From: Cardiobacteriaceae bacterium | GTDB taxonomy: Bacteria > Pseudomonadota > Gammaproteobacteria > Cardiobacteriales > Cardiobacteriaceae | Length of the DNA: 64,000 nucleotides | Reading direction: 5' to 3' | Assembly: GCA_030529365.1 (NCBI GenBank) | Contig: JAUMXB010000004.1 | Span: 62,001-126,000 of the forward strand | Part shown: piece by piece, positions 43,501 to 46,500 of the stretch | How the letters are laid out: each line of letters begins with the position of its first letter | How positions within the stretch are numbered: the first letter of the stretch is position 1 | Made by a program: the position numbers and the translations under genes | Notes under the pieces: generated by a model | Told to the model about the DNA's origin: nothing | The model's database searches: none | Seen by the model: only the letters and a program-made list of their open reading frames with translations

Positions 43501-46500
43501 TCTTTACCGCAATCTTCCCGCGTAACAGATGAATACTCTGGCGCTCCTGTTACAGTGATAGTGCCGGAACTCACGTCTTCCAATGACACGGTTCCCGGGC
43601 CGGATGCCCGTATGACGGCGAAAATAGTCAAGACGCTGCAAAGGGGATTGGGAGATATTCCCGAGGCAGAAAGAACGGATGCTGCAATCAGTGCGGCCAT
43701 GGAGGAAACCATCAAACGTCAGCTTGCCCAGGAACAGTTTGATGATCCTGCGCGGCTGGCAGAATTGGCAAAAGCTGTACGGGAAGAGATTTCCATGGCA
43801 GATGCCACATTGGCGCGACAGGCAGAAGATATTCTCTCTCGTGTAGCTGAATCCGCAAAAGCAAATGATGAATCAGTGGAAATTGATTTCACGGATATGG
43901 ATTTCCTGCAAGAGTTGGCACCGATAGACCCGCGAGCAGAGCAAGTCGTGCGCATGCTGGAACAGGGGCTGGCGGAAAGGGCGGATGATGCCCGTTTGAG
44001 TGCGGCATTGCTCAAGCACCAGCTTTCTAACGAAGTGCTGAGCAATAGCAGCAAGCTGGATGCCTTGCTGGCGGAAATCAACGCCATTTTGAATGGCATG
44101 TCCGTGACGACTGATGATTATGAAACATCAGACGATTTTGCAGCCAGCGTTGAACAGATCAGCCAAATAATAGAAGAAGGCTTGGCGTTGGGCAGTCTGA
44201 GTGCCGATGACAAGGAAGCGCTGGCTGCTGCTGTACGTCAGCAGCTCACTTACCCCCCGGCATCTCTGCAAGACAGTGATGCTTTGAAAGAAGCCGTTGG
44301 TGCGCGGCTGGAGCAAAACGATATTCTGTCTTCAGAAGATGTACAGGATGTTTTGCAGGGAGCCTTTATCAGAGTGGCACACGACACAGAAGCCGGCGCG
44401 GGAGATTTGTCGGTGCAGGATGCGGCAGCACGCCTTCCGCTCTCGCCAGTGGATGCTCTTCAGGCGCTGGATGATGCTGCTGTTTCTACTCTCAGGAAAA
44501 CCTTGCAGAAAGCCTTGGGGAGCGGCCATGTAGATGAATCTGTAGCCGCAGGAATCGGTATGGCATTGGCGCATCAATGGCAGCAGAACAATTTGCCTTT
44601 GGATGATGCGGCATTTGCGGCTATTGCGGCTCGCTTGCGTCACGATTGTGGGCAGGATTCCGATGATGTTGAAGTCGTCCTGCAAGCGCTTGCCAAACGC
44701 CTTGGTGTGACGCCGGCCGGCAAGATTGACGATTCGCCGTTAGTGTCCTTTGAGCGAAAAGAAGATGATTCATCATTGCAAGCAGGTGATTGGCTGGATG
44801 AAGTGGTGGCCAATGATGCGGACGATCAGATGGCATCTCGAGGAGAGACACTGCTCTGGGATAGTACAACAGACATTGAACATACGGCTTCGGCCGCAGA
44901 AAACCTGGCGGACGAAGCATTGTTCGCGCTGGATGTTGGCGGTACAGAAGATGTGGCAAGTGATGCGCTGTCTGATTCATTTGCACTGGCTGAAGCACCG
45001 GATGAAGAAGCAGTGGTTGAAGCAGGGCAGGAGGCCGGTTCTTCCGTCGAACCCGATAATGTGCCGCTCACGTCACCAATGACGCATGAAGCGCTTGTCT
45101 CGGACATGCCAGATGATATTGATCTTCAAACAGAAGAAATGTTTGTTGCACAAGCGGCAGAAAAAGCGGGCGAGGCCGAATTTTCGTTTGATGAAGAGAA
45201 AACGGCTTCCGAGCTGTTCAGTGAGCCGGTAAGAGTTTCTTCGGTGGCAGATACGGCATTCACGGAAGATACGATCAATCTGCCGTTTGATGCATCCGCT
45301 TTGCCCGCCTGCGAAGAGACAGGGGAACATTTGCCTGTCTCCGGCCTGTCGGAAGATATGCTTCATCCTGTATTCTCTGAAACGGCTGCTGATGATGAAA
45401 GCGTGTCTGACAGTATTCCTGAAGAGAGCGGCAGCGAATGGGTGGATATGGCGGAGAACATGTCCCAGCCTGCCGTTTCCATGCGCCCCAGTGCTGCGGC
45501 ACAGCGCTTGAGCCGGGAGTTGGAAGAATTGTCGCAACATCCTGCGCTCAATGATGCGGTGAATCGTTCGTCATCCGTTGCTGCTTCGAATGCGCGTTCC
45601 GGCCCCGCAGTGTTTCTGCATGCAGTAGACAGGTTTGAGACTTTGTCTCAGCAGGTGGAAAATTCCAATGACCCGGATGCCATCAATGAGCTGATCGAAT
45701 CTGTCTATGATATTGAAGACAGCATTGAGCCGGAAACAGCCCCTGATTGGATCTGGCGAATGCTGGATGCCGTAGAGCAGTTGCTGCTGATGTACAAGTA
45801 TCAGGGCGCGGCTGTCAGCCTCAGCGCGGCTTCCATTCTTCGCCAGAGTGCGCATCTGATCGAACATCACAAGGATCAGGAAAACGAAGATGAGGCGCTG
45901 GAGACAATCAATTCCCTGATTTCTGCGCGACAGGAACGCAGCAAAATATCATCCGCGCAGCAAGATGCGCCATTGGCAGGCAGTACCCCGGGTTTTGCCA
46001 GCGCCAATTACAGCGAAGAATTGGTACAGGATCCCAATGCAAACAGCGTGCTTTCCGAAACCTTCCTGGATGAGGCAATGGCGCTGTTTGGCCGGGGGCA
46101 ACTGGATGCCGAGCAATGGGATGAGGATCTGTCTCGCGTCAATATCCTCGATCGCATGCGCCGTGACATGCACACCCTGAAGGGCAGTGCCCGCATGGCT
46201 GGATACATGGCAATCGGAGATTTGACCCATGCCGTGGAAAGCCTGATCGACAATATTCTCGACGGTTATAGTGAGGCAAGTCCGCGGGCAGCAGCCATTC
46301 TTTCCGGGGCAATGTGGCAGGGCATGATTATGCTCGACAATATCCGCGATGGATATCTGCCGCAGATTGATCCCTATATTCTTAACAATATCAGTGACTA
46401 TCTCAAGCAGCCGTTGCCCTATCCTGAAGTGGCGGAACGGGAAAAAGAAGCCAAGGAGTTGCAGCGCCAGGAGGCAGAAGATGCGCAATTCCGTGCCCTG

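Follow-up and report, generated by a model that had tools for sequence, protein, structure and literature searches.

The ChpA-like CheA kinase, the regulator of the pili used for surface crawling, that is encoded in the 64,000-nucleotide stretch of Cardiobacteriaceae DNA analysed here (the window; contig JAUMXB010000004.1) carries a four-fold helical repeat in the middle of the protein, at residues 1030-1399. The original prediction had noticed these four units at positions 43615-44709, which correspond to codons 1037-1401 of the chpA open reading frame (ORF), and profile searches bear this out: a hidden Markov model (HMM) built from the units of Cardiobacterium hominis alone matches ChpA at exactly four places, residues 1036-1119, 1143-1206, 1212-1296 and 1317-1402. 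With an HMM built from all relatives and excluding the window, units 1 to 4 score 21.0, 5.5, 17.3 and 27.6 bits, whereas 2000 shuffled versions of the stretch reach at most 12.5 bits and the reversed protein reaches 2.0 bits. Internal self-alignment, proposed along with the original prediction, also recovers the repeat, as neighbouring units align with z = 5.0 (units 1 and 2), 4.9 (units 2 and 3) and 5.7 (units 3 and 4). Taken alone, unit 2 is weak, and its support comes mainly from its neighbours and from a conserved spacing of 107-110 residues from unit 1. In the genome from which the window derives, the unit is found in ChpA only (E 1e-14 to 1e-18, with a profile that includes the window's own copies), and no DNA-level tandem repeat remains in the window. 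We infer that the array, which is lineage-specific, serves as a non-catalytic, structured helical spacer or scaffold that separates Hpt1 from the part of the protein that holds Hpt2, Hpt3 and the kinase, a role to which we give about even chances.

The unit is ~87 residues long and comprises four helices, with the consensus LPQGVEQEAYGKMLQTLRRGLAAGQDDADAQEALAATIGAQWQQQESLQDSAARAALAQQLSAALGGEGVTDAATVEAILARAAEQAAA. AlphaFold2 predicts four main helices per unit for three consecutive units of a related metagenome-assembled genome (MAG), with a mean predicted local distance difference test (pLDDT) score of 83 and a predicted template modelling (pTM) score of 0.60; the helices of the first modelled unit span residues 7-24, 28-41, 51-64 and 71-87, and helices in this model are just 14-19 residues long. 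For the stretch from the window, the model is poor, with a mean pLDDT of 59.9, and it was used to locate helices and kept out of the fold searches. In this model unit 2 has three helices, at low confidence, and each of the other units has four, in agreement with the additional helix that had been proposed for three of the units. Among the consensus residues, every unit of the window retains Gln 41, three retain Leu 17 (the other has Ile) and three retain Gly 20, and Trp 42 survives in unit 4 only. The Hpt histidine motif had been said to be missing, and indeed no His column is conserved across 42 units (the best reaches 38%). A Thr column stands at 76% and is absent from window units 2 and 3. 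Judged from this alignment, the array is without a residue able to serve as a phosphosite in every unit.

The search for the unit in other proteins, likewise suggested by the original prediction, recovered ChpA arrays across the family. Six of the 12 family genomes carry the unit, always in ChpA where checked, in tandem copies that number 13 in C. hominis (NCTC10426, G004), 14 in C. valvarum (NCTC13294, G009), seven in the Cardiobacteriaceae MAG (G011), two each in Dichelobacter nodosus (G006) and G007, and four in the window; the names of these relatives are as inferred by us. The arrays of these sister species are intact, in phase and expanded and are situated at the same place in ChpA as that of the window, and no array is present in G005 and G010. 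No further carriers were found among 32 genomes of the order, and samples of the class (369 genomes) and the phylum (398, partly overlapping) returned family members only, plus single partial matches of 21-23 bits in two distant genomes that we take as chance; since scoring in large genomes was limited to the best 13-14 candidates, rare remote copies may escape detection. Within the ~700-800 genomes sampled, these profile searches show the unit to be restricted to this lineage. In a tree of the ChpA C-terminus, one change suffices for the carriers in 68% of bootstraps, which is compatible with a single origin of the array and is not proof of it. As a separate observation, the chpA genes of G007 and G005 each contain a frame break that separates the part with Hpt1 from the remainder (L039, reverse strand ~3550-3593, and L040, reverse strand ~2208, respectively) and that in G007 falls immediately 5' of the first unit; the breaks may be real or may be sequencing errors. 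A phase switch at a homopolymer or poly-A tract was considered and rejected, as G007 has no tract of at least six and G005 has only an A6.

How such arrays may grow is best seen in Cardiobacterium. Each of units 1-4, and likewise the last unit, has its orthologue in the other species, at 60-89% identity (88-89% for unit 3), whereas the core units are mostly nearest to units of the same species. Since the ends are orthologous and the core has multiplied within species, the array grows in its middle, in frame and between fixed ends. Adjacent C. hominis copies share 93-98% of their DNA sequence, and the C. hominis chpA gene holds a 261-bp tandem DNA repeat (L035:4511-5921; 5.4 copies, 92% match) whose copy number may vary among isolates. 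Window unit 1 corresponds to position 1, as it scores 36 bits against the position-1 profile and 10 or less against those of other positions, and the step of 107-110 residues from unit 1 to unit 2 is common to the window and Cardiobacterium; no array position is assignable to window units 2-4. When C. hominis is compared with C. valvarum, the ratio of non-synonymous to synonymous change (dN/dS) of the units is 0.10-0.43, and within C. hominis units 7 and 8 differ by seven synonymous and no non-synonymous changes, with dN/dS of 0.09-0.22 elsewhere, although these ratios are rough, since several regions approach synonymous saturation and each unit yields few counts. Amino-acid identity between the two species is 89% for unit 3 and 88% for the kinase core, compared with 40-46% for the flanking linkers. 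With low dN/dS amid fast-evolving linkers, the units are maintained by purifying selection in Cardiobacterium.

Residues 1030-1399 are best read as a degenerate four-unit version of the family-restricted array of ~87-residue, four-helix units. Such a string of packed helical units would be suspended between two acidic flexible linkers, where it could determine how far the N-terminal part with Hpt1 lies from the part comprising Hpt2, Hpt3, kinase and receiver and how freely the two parts move, and it could present a repeated surface to partners, possibly bound through the conserved units. The chemistry of the phosphorelay would presumably be intact, because three His-bearing Hpts remain in ChpA. 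The core period is constant at 85-87 residues although neighbouring units in C. valvarum drop to 47% identity, and it is therefore suggested that adjacent units pack, probably into a rod. With the unit stacked up to 14 times in relatives, the kinase seems to have acquired a structural arm, or a rod for binding, that can be extended. More tentatively, the helical repeat could act as a molecular ruler of adjustable length or as a multivalent scaffold: with a 261-bp in-frame repeat, fixed ends and an expandable core, recombination would alter how far apart Hpt1 and the kinase can lie, or how many partners dock, per lineage and perhaps per strain, and thus tune pilus motility. Several points weigh against a spacer or scaffold. 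The linkers already give flexibility, so the need for a spacer is not proven. Packing between units comes from one structure prediction with a moderate pTM. In the window, where unit 2 has lost a helix, divergence among the units is much greater and gaps of ~20-25 residues separate units 1 and 2 as well as units 3 and 4, the units are less likely to form a rigid rod. Finally, the selection figures pertain to Cardiobacterium only, as the one congener of the window's organism (78% complete) gave no ChpA.

Could the array have arisen from Hpt domains, as the original prediction had entertained? A far-diverged, His-less Hpt bundle whose sequence similarity has been lost would account for the four helices and for the location, since it had been correctly pointed out that other ChpA proteins have further Hpts there: Pseudomonas-type ChpA has five His-bearing Hpts and one His-less Hpt in the corresponding region. 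The TL(R/K)xG segment of the unit also resembles HTLKG, and a forced alignment falls there. Moreover, where it describes a ChpA model, PMC10782961 includes an Hpt-like domain that HHpred misses. However, ChpA 1030-1399 contains no H-x-x-K-G motif, and HHalign comparison of the unit with Hpt (PF01627) yields 0.3-1.4% in all registers, values that permuted and reversed controls also reach. A phase-free comparison of the two profiles gives 0.5%, equal to permuted controls, and doubling the unit, so that any phase is allowed, gives a score of 13.3, where permuted versions have a median of 13.8. In the same test the ChpA Hpt profiles recognise one another at 99%, and Hpts without the His are detected in D. 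nodosus (99.3%), G005 (96.9%) and G013 (93.3%). As the helices of the model are also just 14-19 residues long, Hpt ancestry is improbable, though a shared fold is conceivable, and this part of the original prediction is not supported. A region of Pseudomonas-type ChpA (residues ~391-585), which reaches 17.9% in comparison with the unit and an HMM score of 4-5 bits, was likewise not accepted as a homologue. His-less Hpts nonetheless occur in the middle of these proteins: in D. nodosus one lies just before its two units (L038, residues 849-944), and in G005 and G013 (L040, L042) they occupy the place of the units. The N-terminus of the window's ChpA (residues ~1-80, positions 40507-40746) matches Hpt by profile at 89.6% without a His motif.

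The main rival to a spacer or scaffold is that the units are docking modules for pilus-polarity or response-regulator proteins (PilG, FimL, FimV, PilB complex), with copy number setting how many of these gather, which we regard as possible and rather unlikely. It fits the orthology of the end units and the variability of the core, as expected if some units carry a binding face, and a review of the Pil-Chp system, according to which the role of non-phosphorylated ChpA modules is unknown, suggests that Xpt domains may be protein-binding scaffolds (PMC12632253). FimV, however, is a separate gene in 11 of the 12 family genomes and occurs both with and without the array. Nor do the units match it: no FimV model (TIGR03505 core) is among the NCBIfam matches of 35 units at E <= 0.01, and the search of the window's own genome found no unit in its FimV or elsewhere on the same contig (C15). 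FimL resembles the ChpA N-terminus, and the C. hominis-unit HMM finds no unit in that part of ChpA. Matches to Hpt or FimV profiles, which would have made the units ordinary, were thus looked for and did not occur. Were the array a functionless tandem expansion, selfish or neutral, that the protein merely accommodates in a loop, this would explain the near-identity of neighbouring C. hominis copies, the range of copy numbers from 2 to 14 and the absence of the array from G005 and G010. Yet dN/dS is 0.0-0.47 and mostly under 0.3, frame and period are retained, and the end units are conserved between species, making such an expansion very unlikely.

The units had been called uncharacterised, and no library gives a significant match. 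Residues 1037-1401 have no Pfam match above the curated cut-off, and the individual units find only scattered matches to unrelated families in Pfam, NCBIfam and PHROGs (E ~0.001-0.01). Sequence searches of the PDB return designed repeats only, at E 0.009 or worse. Foldseek and VIA-align searches of PDB folds with the three-unit MAG model give no E below 1 and Z of at most 5.5, to mixed helical proteins, where Z for repeats may reflect a common arrangement only and the lack of Hpt from the list excludes nothing. Weak matches to DUF2267 and DUF3349 come from one and three unit copies, respectively (E ~0.003). DUF2267 (PF10025) was rejected, with one Pfam match at E 0.0036 and a profile comparison at 0.7% against 0.5% for the reversed control (from a three-sequence DUF2267 profile). 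In the open-access literature, which misses most subscription papers, no repeats of this kind were found in ChpA, and the auxiliary-domain section of a survey of CheA architectures names no helical tandem array (PMC10782961). As far as the libraries searched show, the unit is a previously undescribed family within a known kind of protein, ChpA.

That the protein is a ChpA, or Tfp-class CheA, follows from its several Hpts, HATPase, CheW and C-terminal receiver and from its neighbours, as the genes 5' of chpA encode two receivers (response regulators), a CheW and a methyl-accepting chemotaxis protein and thus form a Pil-Chp cluster. The array lies between Hpt1 and Hpt2 with an acidic linker on each side (Table 1).

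Table 1. Features of the chpA-like gene and its repeat array (window coordinates)
Feature	Coordinates	Strand	Description
chpA-like CheA kinase carrying the array	40507..49203	+	2898 aa; uninterrupted ORF; Pfam Hpt x3, HATPase_c, CheW, REC
Hpt1	42307..42630	+	HTLKGSG; residues 601-708
Acidic low-complexity linker upstream of array	42784..43587	+	25% D/E, 3% K/R, net -58
Unit 1	43594..43860	+	TLQRGLGDI; residues 1030-1118; four helices; profile match, position-1 orthology, model
Unit 2	43924..44103	+	MLEQGLAER; residues 1140-1199; three helices, fourth lost; weakest of four
Unit 3	44128..44379	+	IIEEGLALG; residues 1208-1291; four helices
Unit 4	44458..44703	+	TLQKALGSG; residues 1318-1399; four helices; consensus Trp kept
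Acidic low-complexity linker downstream of array	44710..45606	+	23% D/E, net -58
Hpt2	46027..46347	+	HTLKGSA; residues 1841-1947
Hpt3	46579..46887	+	HTLKGGA; residues 2025-2127
Kinase core (HATPase_c, CheW-like, receiver)	47944..49164	+	residues 2480-2886; Pfam

Between the array and Hpt2, residues ~1701-1835 (45607-46011) form a conserved region, 84% identical between C. hominis and C. valvarum, with the motif VYDIEDSI...P.WIWRLLD, which also occurs in G010 and G013; it has no Pfam match and reaches 4.5% against Hpt by profile. Downstream, a 150-residue ORF (49200-49652) overlaps the chpA stop by four bases and has no Pfam match; judged by its position, it may encode a ChpC-like CheW protein.

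The great length of ChpA kinases, and the many modules in them that cannot be phosphorylated, are still unexplained according to the review and the survey (PMC12632253, PMC10782961). Since the copy number of the non-Hpt array varies from 2 to 14 between species, its proposed role as a spacer or scaffold is testable by removing units. In the ChpA proteins of C. hominis and D. nodosus, annotation would show a blank where the unit stands. The former species is an agent of endocarditis, and the latter is the agent of footrot and bears type IV pili.

Set against known systems, the array resembles alpha-helical solenoids (TPR, HEAT, designed repeats) in its head-to-tail helical units, and its weak, non-significant look-alikes in structure and sequence are of such kind, but each unit has four helices and no significant family match. 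Like the auxiliary domains of CheA kinases listed in the corresponding section of the survey (P2/CheY-binding, receiver, CheC/CheX; PMC10782961), it would be a non-core insert in a CheA-type kinase, yet it differs from those listed there in being a helical tandem array without a profile match. The closest parallel is Hpt (PF01627) itself, which in ChpA and Tfp-class CheA is likewise small and entirely helical, recurs in the region that runs from the N-terminus to the kinase core and, in the survey's account of these kinases, includes degenerate copies that lack the His (PMC10782961). Unlike Hpt, the unit has no HTLKG and a profile at noise level, and it is a module of ~87 residues with short helices that, in C. 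hominis, stands in near-identical tandem copies.
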